A DNA stretch of 40,297 nucleotides, taken from positions 1 to 40,297 of the forward strand of contig JAJHPN010000086.1 of assembly GCA_020890855.1 (NCBI GenBank), written 5' to 3'. The notes under the pieces were generated by a model that did not search any database, was not told the origin of the DNA, and saw only the letters and a program-made list of their open reading frames with translations. Numbering within the stretch: position 1 is the first letter of the stretch; each line of letters begins with the position of its first letter. The position numbers and the translations under genes are program-made. The DNA comes from Candidatus Contendibacter sp. (GTDB taxonomy: Bacteria > Pseudomonadota > Gammaproteobacteria > Competibacterales > Competibacteraceae). Positions 26,421 through 40,297 of the stretch are shown in pieces.

Positions 26421-29400
26421 TTAACAGTATTTCCGGACGGCAGGGCAGTTCCAAGGTAAACGCCGCGCCTTGCCCCAATCCGGCGCTGCGACAGGTCAGT
26501 TGACCGCCCAGTTCATGGGCCAGATTAGCGCTGATGTGCAGGCCGAAGCCGTGGCCATTTGGTTTGGTGGTGAAGCCAAACTCGAAGACCCGGTTCAGAT
26601 GCTCCGGGGCGATGCCTGCGCCGTTGTCGGCAATCTCGATGTGCAACCGTTGAGTGTCGATCGGGTGGATCCGGGCGATCAGCCGGCGGCGGCGGCTGTC
26701 CTGTTCTTTGAGCGCCTGCTTGGCGTTCTGGATCAGGTTAGTAACGATTTGCAACAATTTATGCTTGTCCAGCACTTGCGCCGGCAAAGGTGCGTACTCA
26801 CGGATAATGGCGATGGTGTGATGATCGGCGATATTCATGGCCAAGGCGTCATCCAGGAGTTGCGGTAACGGGATCGACTCGCTGACTCCGCTGCTGATGG
26901 CGTAGGTCTGCTGACGGCTGACGATCCGCTTGATGTGGTCAATCTTCCCGGTTACCGCCTGGACCTCGGCGTACAGCTGTTGTTGCTCGTCTTGCAGATG
27001 CTCGGCTAGCGCCGCCAGATAACTCAGCAGGCGCTGGCTCCGGTTGTCGTGGTCTGGCGGGCTGGCGGCCCAGCTTTCCCGCAGCAGTTGTACGGTCTTG
27101 CCGAGATTGACGAGCCGTGAGGCCCGCAGGCCGTCGCTGATCAAGTGGGCCGAGACGTTGACGCTGTTCAGGACATTGCCGACGTTATGCAGCACTCCGG
27201 TCGCCACTTCGGTCATCCCGGCCAGCCGTGAGGCGTCCACCAGTTGCCGGTGCAGCGCTTCGCGCTCGGCGGTGACCCGATTGCGGGCGGTGATGTCCTG
27301 GATAATCGAATACAGCAGGGTTTTGCCGTCTATCTCGACCGGTCCGGAATACACCTCGACATCGCGGATTTCCCCGGAAGCCAGCCGGTGCTGGAACTGG
27401 AAACAATCCCGCCCTTCGGCTATGGCGCTCTGGATTTGCCGGGCGATAACCTCCGGCGGCAGGATGTTGATATCAGAGATTTTTAATTGCTGCAACTGCT
27501 CCAGCGAATAACCATAGTAGCGTACGGCCATCCGATTGGCGTCAACAATGGCGCCGCTGTCCGGATCAATCAGTAGTCCCACTGCCTGGGTATCCATGAA
27601 CAGCCGGTGATAGTGTTCGCGGCTCTGGCGCAACTCGTCGTCCACTTTCTTGCGGCGGATGATTTTCCAGACTTCGTTAGCGACCAGGTAAAGCTGACGG
27701 GCGTCGGCTTCGTCATAGTCACCGATCTTGTTGCCGACCCCGACAATCAGCATTACCCGGTCATTGTCGAGCACCGGGGCGCTCATGTGCCGGATCAGGT
27801 GTGAATGGCCTTCGGGATAGCCTTTTTTATTAGGCAGATTCTGATAGTCATTGTGGATGACGGGCCGGCGTAGCCGGGCGCTGTCCGCCCACACCCCGGC
27901 CTGATTGATCGGGTAATGGTCGTCAACCGCGACCTGGCAGTGTTTGAGGGTCTCTTTTGACCAGGTGAACAGGCGAATGGTCTGCTGATCTTCGTTGACG
28001 AAATGAAAGTAGCCAATCTCGCTGCGGGTCAGCCGCACGGCTTCTTCCACTGCCAGATCGATGATGGCTTTTTCCGACAGACTGTGGGCTTTCTGGTTGA
28101 GGTCCAGCAATGAGTTCAGGCGCTCTTCGTTCAAGCGGAGCGCGTCCTCGGCGGCTTTGCGGGCGGTGATATTGCGGGTTACGCTCAGAACCGATTCCAG
28201 CGCGCCATCCTCGGCGCATTCCGGGGCCAGCCGCGCCTCGAAATACTGGATCTGCCCGGTGGACGAAGGCAGGCAAAAGTCCAATTGTTGCTCCTGTCCG
28301 GTAGCGAGCACCTGCTGAATCGCGGCGTCCCACTGAATAGCCAGCGCCGGATCAAATCCCAGTTCGCGGTTGGTTTTGCCGATGAACTCTGCCGGTTCCC
28401 GCCCGGTCATGGCCAGGATCAGCGGACTGATATAGAGATGCCGCAAGCTCCGATCAAAACGGGCGATCAGATCCGGGGAATGTTCGGCCAGGTTCTTGAA
28501 CTCCTGTTCGCGCCGACGCAGAGCGGCTTCGGCCTGGCGGCGCTCGGTGACATCCATGAAGAGGGCCAGCACTTCATCGCCGAGGATGACGCCGGAAATC
28601 TCCAGTTGGCGAATCTGGCCGTTTTTACTAACGATCTGGTATTCAAACGGGGCTAGATCGACCCCCAGTTGTGCCGCGTCGTCCCGGCTCTGGTCCCAGG
28701 TCGCTGCCGCCCACTGGTGATAACGCACCGTCCGTTCCCAGGTGGCTGCGGCCCATTGGCGGTAGTCGGGGTCGGGACAGACTACCCGCCACCAGTCATC
28801 AATAGTCGGCACATCGGCCAGGGTATAGCCGAAGGTCTTGATAAACCGGTCGTTGATATATAGCAGCGCACCCTCCTGGCTGAGCGAACACAACGGCAAC
28901 GGCGCAGCGTCGAGCAGCCGCTTGAACTCCTGTTCGCGGCGATGCAGAGCCGCTTCGGTCAGGCGACGTTCGGTGATATCCAGAAACATCGCCAGTAACT
29001 CGTCGCCGAGCAGAACCCCGGAAATCTCGATCAACCGGGTCTGGCCGTTCTTGCCGGTGATCTGGTATACCGCCGGCTTGATGTCGGTCCTGGTTTGCGC
29101 CGCAGTTCGTACGGCGGAGCTCCAGGCGGCGATCACCTGCTGCCGGTAATCGGGATCGGGATAGGCCGCCCGCCACCAGTCATCAATGGTCGGCACGTCG
29201 GCCAGGGTATAGCCGAAGGTCTCGGTAAACCGATAGTTGATATAGCGCAGGTTGCCGGCGGTGTTGACCGAACACAACGGCAATGGCGCAGCGTTGAGCA
29301 ACTGCTGGAATCGTTCCGCCACCGCTTGTCGTGCGGCGTTTTGCTGTTCCAGTCCGGCGGCCATTTCATTAAAGCTGACCGCTAGATCGCGCAGTTCGCC

Positions 29401-31800: not shown

Positions 31801-31958
31801 GCCTGGAATTAGCCAGCGCTGTCATCCTCGGCGTTGATCGGCAAGAGATCGCTTACGGGCGATAACCCGTTGAATTGCTGGCAATCAGCTTTTGTCAAAA
31901 GCCAGTGCTTATTGAGAATCGGTATCACTGCCCAGTCGCCAAACGAGCGCCTATCGCC

Positions 31959-34900
31959 ATGTCGCCTTTCCTTATCCGATCAGTAACCACTTTCCTCACG
32001 GCGATCTTCTTACTGCTCACGCTCACCGTGCGGGCGGGAGCGTCGGAAAATCCCGCAATTCTTCCGGTTATTGCCAACGAAACCGACGTTCGCCCGCCGG
32101 TTGTGCTCGACGACTTCGAGGATTTGAGCGGGTGGCGGGTGACGACCTCACCCGGCGCCCGGCTGGAGATCGCCCAGGATGCTGGACTGACCGGCCGGGC
32201 GATGCGGCTGGATTTCGAGTTTGAGGATGGGGCCGGCTATGTGGTGGCCCGCAAAGCATTCCCGTTGCGTCTGCCAGGCAATTTCGCCTTTCGCTTCCAG
32301 ATGCGGGGCGATGCGCCGCGCAGCGATGTTGAGTTCAAGCTGATCGATTCCAGGCAGAGCGTCTGGTGGTTCAAGCGTCGGGATTACGACTTTCCCGGCG
32401 ACTGGCAGCCGACCACGATCAAGAAGCGTCATCTCGGTCTGGCGTGGGGGCCGGGCGGGACGATGGATGACGTGGTCATGGTCGAATTTGCCCTGTCCGC
32501 AGGGACGCTGGGCAAGGGGTCAGTGTGGATCGACGATCTGACCTTTGAAGCGCGCGAACCGGCCTCGGACTACCTGTTGACGCCGACGGTTCGCGCCTCG
32601 ACCATGGTTGAGGGGCAGCCGCCGGAAGCGGTGCTGGATGCCGACCCGGCGACCAGCTGGCGCAGTGGGGCGCTGGCCGAGGAGCAATGGCTGTCGCTGG
32701 ATTTTCTCAAATCCCGCGAATACGGTGGGTTGGTGATTGACTGGGATGCTGACGATTACGCCACCGATTATCAGGCGCAGGTTTCGGATGACGGCGAGCG
32801 ATGGCGGACGGTGTACACGGTGCGCGAAGGCAATGGGCGGCGCGATTATCTGTATTTGCACGACGCCGAATCGCGCTATCTACGGTTGAATCTGCGACAC
32901 AGCAGCCGGGGGCGGGGTTACGGCATTGGCCGGGTGCAGGTGCAGTCCTACGAATTTTCCGCTTCACCGAACCGGTTTTTTGAAGCCATCGCCCACGATG
33001 CCCCACGCGGCTATTACCCGCGTTACTTTCAAGGCGAACAAGGTTACTGGACCGTGGTTGGGGCTGGTGGCGGCGACAGCGAGGAAGCGTTATTGAGCGA
33101 GGATGGCGCGCTGGAGGTGAATCGGGGCGGTTTCACCATTGAACCCTTTCTGTTCACGGATGGCCATCTGATCACCTGGGCTGATGTGGAGCCGGCGCAG
33201 AGTCTGGCCGAGGACTACCTGCCCATTCCGACGGTGCGTTGGGAACACCAGAATTTCTGGCTGGGCGTCACCGCCTTTGCCGCCGGCAAACCGGGCGAGT
33301 CAGCGTTGTACGCCCGCTACCGGGTGGAAAATCTCAGCGCCGAAACCCGCCACATCATCCTGTTTCTGACGGTGCGGCCCTTTCAGGTCAACCCGCCGTG
33401 GCAATCGCTGAACATGGTAGGCGGCGTCTCGCCGATCCGCGAGCTGGACTACGCCGATCAGCTGGTCCGAGTGACGCCTTCCGGCAAGCAGATTGCGGTT
33501 TTCAACGCGCCGGATCGTTTCCGCGCCGCCAGCTTCGATCAAGGACTGCTGATCAACAGTCTGGCGGAAGGCAAGCTGCCGGATCGGCCCCGGGTGATTG
33601 ATGACAGTTTCGGCTATGCCTCCGGAGCGCTGGAATACGGCTGGGATTTACGGCCCGGCGAAGCTCGTACGGTTTACCTGCAAATTCCATTTCACGCCGC
33701 TGCGCCCTTCCCCGCGTTTGCCAAGAAGAGAGGAGCCGGGGGCGATGGGGTCCCTGCCGAGACTGACACCGCAGAGCAGGTTGAACGACTGCTGGACAAA
33801 ACCCGGCGCGACTGGGCGGCGCGGCTGGATCGGGTGGGACTGGAACTGCCGCCGGTAGCCCAGCCACTGGCTCACAGCATCAAAAGCAACCTGGCCTACA
33901 TTTTCATCAATCGCGACGGTCCGGCGTTGCAACCCGGCTCCCGCGCCTATGCCCGTTCGTGGATCCGCGACGGCGCATTAACTTCAGCGGCGCTGTTAGG
34001 CATGGGCTACACCGAAGAAGTGCGGCAGTTTCTGCAATGGTACGCGACCTACCAGTTCCCGGATGGCAAGGTGCCGTGCTGCGTCGATACCCGCGGAGCC
34101 GATCCCACGGTGGAGCATGATAGCCACGGCCAGTTGATTTACGCCGTGATGGAGTATTACCGCTACACTCGCGATGTCGGATTTTTGCGCGAGATGTGGC
34201 CGTATGTGGTCAAGGCGGCGGATTATATCGAAACCTTGCGCCAGCAACGCTTGACCGAGACTTACCTGAATCTGGAATCATGCGCGTATTGCGGACTGGT
34301 TCCTGAATCGATCAGCCATGAGGGCTACGCCAACAAGCCGCGTCATTCCTACTGGGACAATTTTTTCATCCTGCGCGGGTTGAAAGATGCGGCGACGATG
34401 GCGGCGATTCTTGGTGAAGAGCAACAGGCCAAACGGTTTGCCGCGATCCGCGACGCCTTCCGCAAGGATTTGTACGCCTCAATCCGGACCACCATGCAAC
34501 TGCGCCACATTGACTACATTCCCGGCGCGGTCGAATTGGGCGATTTTGATCCGACCTCAACCACGGTGGCCCTTGATCCGGGCGGCGAGTTGGGACTGCT
34601 GCCGCAACCAGCGCTGGATCGGACTTTCGAGCGCTACGCCGAATTTTTCCGCAAGCGCCGCGCCGAGCAAACCTGGCGAGCTTATACGCCTTATGAATGG
34701 CGGGTGGTGGGCGCGATGGTCCGGTTGGGATTCCGCGATCTGGCGCTGGAGGCGCTGGCGTTCTTTTTTGAGGGCCAGCGGCCGGCCGCCTGGAATCAGT
34801 GGGCGGAAGTGGTTTGGCGCGATCCCCGGACCCCGCGTTTTATCGGCGACATGCCGCACACCTGGGTGGGTTCCGACTTCATCCGCGCCGCGCGCAGCCT

Positions 34901-35228
34901 GTTCGTTTACGAACGCGAGGCTGATCAGGCGCTGGTCATTGGGGCCGGGATTCCTGCTGCGTGGGTAGAAAACACCGAGGGCGTGACAATCAGGCGGATG
35001 CCGACCTGGCACGGAACCTTGAATTTCCGGATGGCGATGAACGGCCCGGATACGCTGCGAATGCAACTGGCGGGTGATGTCACCGTGCCGCCGGGCCGGA
35101 TTATTCTGCACTCGCCACTGAATCGGCCGATTCGGGCCATGACGGTGAATAGTCAACCGGTGACGACGTTTACCGCGAACACCGCCACCATTGACCAGTT
35201 TCCGGCAGAGGTGGAATTACGGTATTAA
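31959..35228 (+). CDS. Large exported glycoside-hydrolase-like protein with discoidin domain
   Basis: The ATG at 31959 gives 1089 residues with a signal peptide (FLIRSVTTFLTAIFLLLTLT, cleavage near AGA). A TTG at 31875 would extend it without purpose. A carbohydrate-binding-like domain lies at about 40-205 (VVLDDFEDLSGWRVTTSP). An F5/8 type C (discoidin) domain follows at about 215-335 (ADPATSWRSG, QVSDDGERWRTVYTV, YLRLNLRHSSRGRGYGIGRV). The middle holds beta-sandwich parts (about 345-610). An (alpha/alpha)6-barrel-like catalytic domain runs from about 640 to 1000, with YARSWIRDGALTSAALLGMGY, PTVEHDSHGQLIYAVMEYYRY and PRHSYWDNFFILRG. Trp and acidic residues in those motifs resemble six-hairpin glycosidases such as GH15/GH63-like enzymes. 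The substrate is unknown. An unusual Pro/Gly-rich stretch at 33704-33757 may come from an inserted repeat. Confidence 0.83.
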   Translation: MSPFLIRSVTTFLTAIFLLLTLTVRAGASENPAILPVIANETDVRPPVVLDDFEDLSGWRVTTSPGARLEIAQDAGLTGRAMRLDFEFEDGAGYVVARKAFPLRLPGNFAFRFQMRGDAPRSDVEFKLIDSRQSVWWFKRRDYDFPGDWQPTTIKKRHLGLAWGPGGTMDDVVMVEFALSAGTLGKGSVWIDDLTFEAREPASDYLLTPTVRASTMVEGQPPEAVLDADPATSWRSGALAEEQWLSLDFLKSREYGGLVIDWDADDYATDYQAQVSDDGERWRTVYTVREGNGRRDYLYLHDAESRYLRLNLRHSSRGRGYGIGRVQVQSYEFSASPNRFFEAIAHDAPRGYYPRYFQGEQGYWTVVGAGGGDSEEALLSEDGALEVNRGGFTIEPFLFTDGHLITWADVEPAQSLAEDYLPIPTVRWEHQNFWLGVTAFAAGKPGESALYARYRVENLSAETRHIILFLTVRPFQVNPPWQSLNMVGGVSPIRELDYADQLVRVTPSGKQIAVFNAPDRFRAASFDQGLLINSLAEGKLPDRPRVIDDSFGYASGALEYGWDLRPGEARTVYLQIPFHAAAPFPAFAKKRGAGGDGVPAETDTAEQVERLLDKTRRDWAARLDRVGLELPPVAQPLAHSIKSNLAYIFINRDGPALQPGSRAYARSWIRDGALTSAALLGMGYTEEVRQFLQWYATYQFPDGKVPCCVDTRGADPTVEHDSHGQLIYAVMEYYRYTRDVGFLREMWPYVVKAADYIETLRQQRLTETYLNLESCAYCGLVPESISHEGYANKPRHSYWDNFFILRGLKDAATMAAILGEEQQAKRFAAIRDAFRKDLYASIRTTMQLRHIDYIPGAVELGDFDPTSTTVALDPGGELGLLPQPALDRTFERYAEFFRKRRAEQTWRAYTPYEWRVVGAMVRLGFRDLALEALAFFFEGQRPAAWNQWAEVVWRDPRTPRFIGDMPHTWVGSDFIRAARSLFVYEREADQALVIGAGIPAAWVENTEGVTIRRMPTWHGTLNFRMAMNGPDTLRMQLAGDVTVPPGRIILHSPLNRPIRAMTVNSQPVTTFTANTATIDQFPAEVELRY
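33704..33757 (-). repeat. Probable palindromic repeat element embedded in frame in the glycoside-hydrolase gene
   Basis: Read on the - strand, this stretch gives CCCCATCGCCCCCGGCTCCTC, then TTGGCAAA, then GCGGGGAAGGG. That is the same order of motifs as the elements at 38880 and 39221. It encodes PFPAFAKKRGAGGDG, a linker unlike its surroundings. The match was made by eye and is imperfect. Confidence 0.4.
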
Positions 35229-38313: not shown

Positions 38314-40297
38314 ATGCCCGTCGATCTCGCTCAACACGCCCAAGCTGCCGGTGGCTACGTTCTTGCCGGCAACCGCTACGCTACTTTTCTCACCACCGCC
38401 GGCGCTGGTTATTCAGTATGGAACGAGTTGACGCTGACCCGCTGGACGGCGGATGCGCTGGAAAGCAGCGGCGGTTTCCTGCTGTATCTGCGCGATCTCG
38501 ATGATGGCGTGTTCTGGTCGTTTGGCCAACGGCCAGCGGCGAGCCAAGAGAGCCGGTTTGACGGCGGCATTGCTGAATTTAACCGGCTGGATCAAGAGAT
38601 TAAAGCCCAGCTGGAGATCTGCGTCGCTCCAGACGCTGATCTGGAGTTGCGGCGGCTTACGCTTCGCAACGCCAGTGACCGACCCCGGCGGATCGAACTG
38701 ACCAGCTATGCCGAGCTGGTGCTTAATCACCGGGCTGCGGATACCGCTCATCCGGCGTTTTCCAAGCTGTTTATTCAGACCCAATGGGCGGCTGAACAGC
38801 AGGCCTTGCTGGCCCGGCGGCGTCCGCGCACTGCCGAAGAACCATCATGCTGGCTGGTTCATGCGCTGGTTGGCGCAAGCCCCATCCCGGTCCTTCCCCT
38901 TGCCAAAGCAGGGGGAGTCCAATACGAAACCGACCGCGCCCGCTTCATTGGCCGGGGTTACTCACTGGCCGCGCCCCGAGGTTTAGTGACAACCGAACCC
39001 CTGTCCGGCACGGTCGGCGATGTGCTCGATCCCATCGTCAGCTTGCGAGGAACCGTGGAGCTGGCGGTGGGCGGCGAAGCGCAGTGGACTTTTCTGCTTG
39101 GGGCAGCTTCGGAACGGGAAACCGCGTTGACCTTGGTCCCCCGTTATCAGTCTGTCGCGACTATTGATGCGGCATTTCAGGCAGCGGCGCGTCGTGAGGC
39201 GGACTCCTCATCGCTAACAGCTCCCCCGCCCTTTGCCAAAATTCTCTCGGTTGCGCCGCCCTCGAAAATCTCCCCGGTGGCGCCGCCCTCCTTGGCAAAA
39301 GGGAGGCAGGAGGAATTCACAACCCTGGAAGAATCAACACTCCAGTTCTGGAATGGCTTGGGTGGCTTCAGCGCTGAAGGCGGCGAATATGTGATCCGCC
39401 TTGAACCGGACGCTGAGGGTCGGCTGAAGTTGCCTCCGCAGCCCTGGGTCAACATTATCGCCAACCCGCAGTTCGGCTTTCTCAGCAGCGAAACCGGCGC
39501 CGGTTATACCTGGAGCCAGAATAGCCGCGAAAACCGGTTGACCCCGTGGTTCAACGATCCGGTTCTCGACCCGCACGGCGAGGCGCTGTATCTGCGCGAT
39601 GAAGGAGACGGCCAATTCTGGTCATTGCTGCCCGGCCCGATTCCTCAACCGACGCCTTGCGAGGTTCGGCACGGCTTCGGCTATAGCCGCCACCACCAGG
39701 TCAGTCAGGGATTGGAGCAGGAGGTCTGGTTGTTCGTCCCGCGTGAAGATCCGGTCAAAATCACCCGGATTCGGTTGCGCAATCGCCGCGATCAACCCTG
39801 TCGATTGGCGCTGTTCAGCTACGCCCGCCTGGTGTTGGGCGCGTTACCGGGCGACCATGCGGGGGAGTTGGCGATTGAACAGGACGCTGCGACGGGCGCG
39901 TTGCTGGCCGAAAATGGCAACGGCGAATTTGCTGGGCGGATCGCGTTCGCCGCCGGATCGCCGACCGACAGCATTCCGGTTCACGTTACTGGCGATCGCG
40001 CCGAATTCATTGGACTTTACGGTAGTCCCGCGCAGCCAGCGGCGCTGAATCGCGCAACCCTCAGCGGCCGGTTGGGTGCGGAGCTGGATCCCTGTTTCGC
40101 CCTGCAAGTCATCCTGATCCTGGAGCCGGGTGAATCGGTCGAATACGCTTTCTTGCTCGGTGAGGCGGCGGATCGCGACGAGGCGCGGCGGTTGATCGAC
40201 CGTTATCGTGAAGACGGCGCAATTGCAGCGGCGCTGACCGAGGTTCGGGCGTTCTGGCGGGATTGGCTGGGCGCCGTGCAGATCGAGACGCCAGACC
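38314..40297 (+). CDS. GH94-type glycan phosphorylase/synthase-like protein (cyclic-glucan-synthase C-terminal-like), 3' partial
   Basis: The frame is open from the ATG at 38314 to the window's end (661 codons), with GGAG upstream of the start. Residues from about 15 to 290 resemble the GT36-associated region of NdvB-type cyclic beta-1,2-glucan synthases: NRYATFLTTAGAGYSVWNEL, LELRRLTLRNASDRPRRIEL, HPAFSKLFIQTQ and VQYETDRARFIGRGY. From about 340 a second beta-sandwich domain begins (LPPQPWVNIIANPQFGFLSS, NSRENRLTPWFNDP). The (alpha/alpha)6 phosphorylase barrel is expected beyond the window. The membrane glycosyltransferase half of NdvB is absent at this start, so this is a soluble stand-alone version; the product is unclear. 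Two repeat-like insertions at 38880-38919 and 39221-39314 keep the frame. Confidence 0.8.
   Translation, partial: MPVDLAQHAQAAGGYVLAGNRYATFLTTAGAGYSVWNELTLTRWTADALESSGGFLLYLRDLDDGVFWSFGQRPAASQESRFDGGIAEFNRLDQEIKAQLEICVAPDADLELRRLTLRNASDRPRRIELTSYAELVLNHRAADTAHPAFSKLFIQTQWAAEQQALLARRRPRTAEEPSCWLVHALVGASPIPVLPLAKAGGVQYETDRARFIGRGYSLAAPRGLVTTEPLSGTVGDVLDPIVSLRGTVELAVGGEAQWTFLLGAASERETALTLVPRYQSVATIDAAFQAAARREADSSSLTAPPPFAKILSVAPPSKISPVAPPSLAKGRQEEFTTLEESTLQFWNGLGGFSAEGGEYVIRLEPDAEGRLKLPPQPWVNIIANPQFGFLSSETGAGYTWSQNSRENRLTPWFNDPVLDPHGEALYLRDEGDGQFWSLLPGPIPQPTPCEVRHGFGYSRHHQVSQGLEQEVWLFVPREDPVKITRIRLRNRRDQPCRLALFSYARLVLGALPGDHAGELAIEQDAATGALLAENGNGEFAGRIAFAAGSPTDSIPVHVTGDRAEFIGLYGSPAQPAALNRATLSGRLGAELDPCFALQVILILEPGESVEYAFLLGEAADRDEARRLIDRYREDGAIAAALTEVRAFWRDWLGAVQIETPD
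38880..38919 (+). repeat. Palindromic GC-rich repeat embedded in frame in the GH94-type gene, short form
   Basis: CCCCATCCCGGTCCTTCCCC is followed by TTGCCAAAGCAGGGGGAG. The second half folds as an 8-bp hairpin (CCCCTTGC with GCAGGGGG, one G-T pair). It encodes PIPVLPLAKAGG, between a strand that is usually followed almost directly by the YETDRARF motif. This implies an in-frame insertion. Confidence 0.55.
39221..39314 (+). repeat. Palindromic repeat embedded in frame in the GH94-type gene, long form
   Basis: CTCCCCCGCCCTTTGCCAAA at 39221-39240 is mirrored by TTGGCAAAAGGGAGG at 39292-39306, an inverted pair of about 12 bases with one extra A, around a 50-base centre. The centre holds two copies of GCGCCGCCCTC. 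It encodes a Pro/Ala/Ser-rich linker (VAPPSKISPVAPPSLAKG) between two structured domains. Confidence 0.6.

Follow-up and report, generated by a model that had tools for sequence, protein, structure and literature searches.

A palindromic repeat element in the interdomain linker of a GH94-family protein of Candidatus Competibacteraceae, probably an old in-frame insertion

The window, by which we mean the whole stretch of 40,297 nt analysed here, corresponds to contig C318 in a draft genome of 3.26 Mb from Candidatus Competibacteraceae (G000 in our comparisons). At its end lies a gene for the N-terminal 661 aa of a GH94-family protein, in which the Pfam domain PF06165 (GH94_b-supersand) is matched twice (E 3e-145), and homologues of this protein were present in 31 of the 59 genomes searched. 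A preliminary description of this DNA had reported two in-frame palindromic segments with a shared core in this gene. Both segments exist and keep the frame; segment A forms part of a loop in the first GH94 supersandwich domain, and segment B lies in the linker that joins this domain to the second one (Table 1). By themselves, the two segments are unremarkable. The putative core, TTGCCAAA, was rejected as a repeat signature, as this 8-mer occurs in the window at the frequency expected by chance (2 versus 1.91), and fold energy was uninformative, as neither segment beats its shuffles: the hairpin of segment A was equalled by 21 of 200 shuffles, and segment B alone folds no better than its own.

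Table 1. Positions of the host gene, its linker and the repeat-related features in the window.
Feature	Position	Strand	Basis
Host gene, GH94-family protein, N-terminal 661 aa	38314..40296	+	open frame; runs off the contig end
Segment A, short hairpin in loop of first supersandwich domain	38895..38916	+	hairpin; weak element score
Variable interdomain linker (residues 283-346), landing site	39160..39351	+	protein alignment, 24 Competibacteraceae sequences
CTTTGCCAAA flank (core of the preliminary description), adjoining the element on the left	39231..39240	+	linker DNA comparison
Tandem duplicate of the element's first half, left of the window copy	39239..39264	+	direct repeat, 81% identical, spacing 27; partial alignment to element
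Decayed copy spanning the whole palindromic element; encodes about KISPVAPPSLAKGRQEEF	39266..39317	+	ungapped 52-nt alignment to family element

The identity of segment B emerged from its relatives. Used as a query against the genome, it retrieved a second copy inside PurL, and the corresponding linker of a sister species retrieved copies in 26 of 39 family genomes; all copy counts are minimum values obtained by BLAST and pattern searches. The consensus built from the family copies reads AAATCCCCCC-GGCTTCGCCA-CCCCCCTTTGAAAAAGGGGGG-TCA-GGGGGGATTT. Full copies measure 47-64 nt, mostly 53-54 nt in coding sequences and about 60 nt in several intergenic copies; because 26 full copies are spread over all three length classes, a length in multiples of three was rejected as a property of the element. 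The outer arms AAATCCCCCC and GGGGGGATTT are 10-nt terminal inverted repeats, and the ends AAATC/GATTT are conserved across 50 copies, none of which is abutted by a direct repeat of at least 2 nt that would represent a target-site duplication; the flanks outside the ends of these 50 copies contain no conserved tag. For intact copies, taken as single-stranded DNA, the predicted structure is a three-way junction (z -4.5 and -6.1, with 0 of 200 shuffles as good): AAATCCCCCC pairs with GGGGGGATTT in the outer stem, and the other two arms are hairpins, a small one of GGC-TTC-GCC and one of C6-TTT/AAA-G6. Coding copies mostly use the frame starting IPP (a plain count, in which some open frames are possibly not genes), and their usual translation is a Pro/Gly/Lys peptide, IPPxxPPFxKGGxGGF. 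At least four of the element's six frames lack a stop codon, but this is ordinary for a 54-mer of such composition and was therefore rejected as a special property. The element has no match in Rfam; the rigid pattern CCCTTTGCCAAA...GGGNGG gave zero matches, as did a search of a plasmid collection with the 54-mer, possibly as a result of low-complexity filtering.

Aligned to this consensus, the window copy scores 60, compared with 36 for the best stretch elsewhere in the window, and none of 3,968 background stretches reaches that score; nhmmer gives an E of 0.0069 over consensus positions 1-53. It is this homology to the family element that makes segment B real. The copy is only about 77% identical to the consensus, and it has lost the three-way junction (fold z +0.3) but kept the frame, as would suit an old insertion that survives only in the protein. 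The element occupies the GH94 linker in all four species of the genus (G000 and G001-G003), and the orthologous copies of G001-G003 (E 2e-5 to 6e-8) are nearer to the consensus than the window copy is. It lies in the plus orientation in G000 and G003 and in the minus orientation in G001 and G002, and a stretch resembling the CTTTGCCAAA flank adjoins it in G001 and G002 too.

The relatives had been expected to go straight into the next motif at segment B, and here the alignment says otherwise: a linker is present at this site in every one of the 24 aligned Competibacteraceae sequences, 46-82 aa long in the relatives and 188 aa in G008. Genera that lack the element also have a hypervariable and often Pro/Ala-rich linker, which leaves the insertion in the window without a clean empty site to define it. 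At the linker position of G008 (L039, contig C176) there are about 188 aa of ordinary-looking protein; what the other genera have there as a linker may be left over from a domain that was lost. Our reading is that segment B is an old, decayed mobile palindromic repeat that was inserted in frame between the GH94 supersandwich domains before or during the divergence of the genus, and we give this a probability of about 0.86. The suggestion of an active or recently active family is not supported for the window copy, given its divergence, its lost fold and a site that is filled in all four species.

The status of segment A is weaker. Its loop comprises 29 aa in G000 and 28 aa in G002, about 6 aa more than in most relatives, where 22 aa is common. 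With an element score of 26, segment A is undecided as a copy, because 24 of the 3,968 background stretches score as well; only its orthologous stretch in G002 scores above it (36). Segment A is possibly a remnant of the same palindromic element. Elsewhere in the window, positions 33705-33745 may hold a further decayed element (score 36, the best in the rest of the window), inside a gene (31875-35228) with F5/8 C and 6-hairpin glycosidase domains. The protein is about 10 aa longer in this region in G000-G002, and the same site carries SPxxGRGxGG-type palindromic sequence in G059 and, less clearly, in G030 and G010. Direct repeats of about 190 nt lie within positions 28484-29310; they are 71-79% identical to each other and spaced 384 and 426 nt.

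Further copies in this genome, as the preliminary description had anticipated, lie in frame in linkers of three other proteins, SucB, PurL and a large NdvB-like glucan synthase, and two are intergenic; the in-frame copies also bear out its idea of a repeat family that tolerates insertion into protein linkers. In SucB, the copy lies between the E3_binding domain (92-124) and the catalytic domain (181-408), and the insert is present in G000, G003, G022 and G028 and absent from G001, G002 and most others. In PurL, it immediately precedes the glutaminase domain GATase_5 and is confined to G000 and G002 among 28 alignable loci. The NdvB-like insert occurs in five genomes, in one orientation in G000, G010 and G020 and in the opposite one in G021 and G034, and is absent from at least six relatives. 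Both orientations are thus seen at two sites, the GH94 linker and the NdvB-like protein, which suggests in-place inversion or independent insertion. Among the relatives, the element is found between the lipoyl and reductase domains of LPD in G010, and in restriction and Cas3-like proteins it precedes the helicase or methyltransferase domain. Of the intergenic copies, some lie near gene starts and some within a larger inverted repeat. The latter unit was seen around copies with a core of about 47-60 nt (L122, L056, L136, L146-L149, L163 and L014); its ends are like TATAGG...GTTGTGG / CCACAACTC...CCTATA, and it resembles a separate MITE. In G018 (contig C241, L125:980-1201), tandem units of about 42 nt encode GISSSPSFxKGxQG repeats inside a 767-aa open frame without a Pfam match.

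How such an element moves can be outlined from its structure. It would insert without target duplication, probably via a single-stranded folded intermediate; the conserved ends together with the lack of duplication would suit a single-strand mechanism. Most insertions into coding sequence would be lost, and those in disordered linkers would survive, presumably because most frames of the element are free of stops and its usual translation is a Pro/Gly/Lys peptide. The outer arms may allow flipping in place and hence both orientations. For the host, the element would amount to a tolerated linker extension.

A candidate mover that is compatible with an old insertion, and that we regard as a tentative possibility, is a single-strand transposase of the RAYT or IS200/IS605 type, such as has been proposed for GTAG REPs. 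The hairpin ends and the lack of target-site duplication would agree with it, and Y1_Tnp (PF01797) genes occur in 32 of 39 family genomes, this one included; on the other hand, none of the 20 Y1_Tnp loci examined is clearly flanked by the element, and the consensus carries neither a GTAG nor a CGTC tag. Less probable is that the repeat is kept for a role at the RNA or DNA level, such as a transcript hairpin or a protein-binding site, with coding being incidental. The predicted junction of intact copies and the intergenic copies near gene starts or in a larger inverted repeat would favour such a role, but the window copy keeps its frame without the fold, and at orthologous sites in sister species that lack the element the gene is still open. 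That segment B is part of an unremarkable low-complexity Pro/Ala linker, subject to drift under GC pressure, and that its palindrome and repeat match are coincidental, is very improbable and already largely refuted: the hypervariable linkers and a fold no better than shuffles would favour this view, but the full-length ungapped match, unequalled in the background, and the near-consensus orthologous copies in three sister species speak against it.

Outside this genus, the GH94 linker is occupied by two different palindromic families. The second family, AAACCACCCCGGCGCTTCGCGCCACCCCTCCTTATCCAAGGAGGGG, lies in the GH94 linker of G017 and, judged by flanks, also of G060. It was found in 25 of 39 family genomes; this genome has 12 copies and some have dozens, and over about 47 nt the copies are often 100% identical both within and between genera. 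Such identical copies suggest recent activity only elsewhere in Competibacteraceae. Copies of this family also lie between polyketide synthase domains and, in a radical-SAM protein, inside the Radical_SAM_N match, so insertion is not always between domains. The third family, TCTCCCCTGGCGGGAGAGGGTCGGGGTGAGGGG, was found in 27 of 39 family genomes; it occupies the GH94 linker of G010, and G020 and G024 have related stretches there. As for the main element, 4 of 398 Pseudomonadota genomes sampled, one of them the present genome, matched its strict pattern (a reversed control gave 0 matches), and its core was found in 116 stretches on viral contigs, with an outer arm at 123 of 141 cores. The element is therefore not private to Competibacteraceae. 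The viral core copies (L193-L308, IMG/VR contigs) mostly have an ATCCCCC arm. A broader proposal, which we put forward as speculative and rather doubtful, is that several unrelated palindromic families repeatedly enter the same Competibacteraceae linkers, building or rebuilding the linkers of core enzymes, and that the main element, common to distant bacteria and viral contigs, would spread horizontally by a single-strand mechanism.

The pattern shows repeat DNA extending the linkers of proteins in a lineage outside the rickettsiae. In SucB, PurL, the lipoyl-LPD fusion and the glucan synthases, orthologous sites can be compared with and without the repeat; one linker holds several repeat families, and both orientations are found at a single site. 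Together, these cases provide a comparative data set outside Rickettsia in which linker evolution through repeat insertion becomes directly testable. They are also a warning to annotators that PPxxKGGxGG-type stretches are translated repeats.

The closest parallel drawn so far is with the palindromic elements of Rickettsia (RPEs), which are described, as relayed from Ogata et al. (2000, 2002) in PMC10969869, as repeats of about 150 bp in an intracellular alphaproteobacterium. The likeness is one of mode: in both cases, palindromes lie in frame in unrelated genes and are absent from some orthologues (here PurL, SucB and NdvB). Membership among the RPEs does not follow, as the present element is 53-60 nt long (full copies 47-64 nt) and belongs to a gammaproteobacterial family. 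According to the 2024 review (PMC10969869), in-frame insertions are unusually frequent in Rickettsia, and comparable protein evolution in other prokaryotes is no more than conceivable. Intragenic GTAG/CGTC REPs have been reported in several species, free-living ones included (Di Nocera et al. 2013, PMC3733652), where different REPs occur at about the same place of recB in two Xanthomonas species and RPE-4 and RPE-6 are assigned to the CGTC group. The present element shares with these REPs the occurrence of short palindromes inside genes, but ends in AAATC/GATTT without either tag and is predicted to form a three-way junction with an A/T-tipped outer stem. GTAG REPs flank a RAYT gene; at the 20 Y1_Tnp loci examined, a subset of all such loci, the element was not found in that position. 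With MITEs, as reviewed in PMC10969869, it shares terminal inverted repeats, the lack of a transposase of its own and, for several intergenic copies, a position within a larger inverted-repeat unit, but it is much smaller than the usual MITE and shows a target-site duplication in 0 of 50 copies. Literature searches by sequence and by concept, with partial coverage that mostly left subscription papers outside, returned no description of the element. In-frame intragenic palindromes were already known outside Rickettsia; what appears to be new, within the literature covered, is the element itself, which is without either tag and unlike the RPEs in size.
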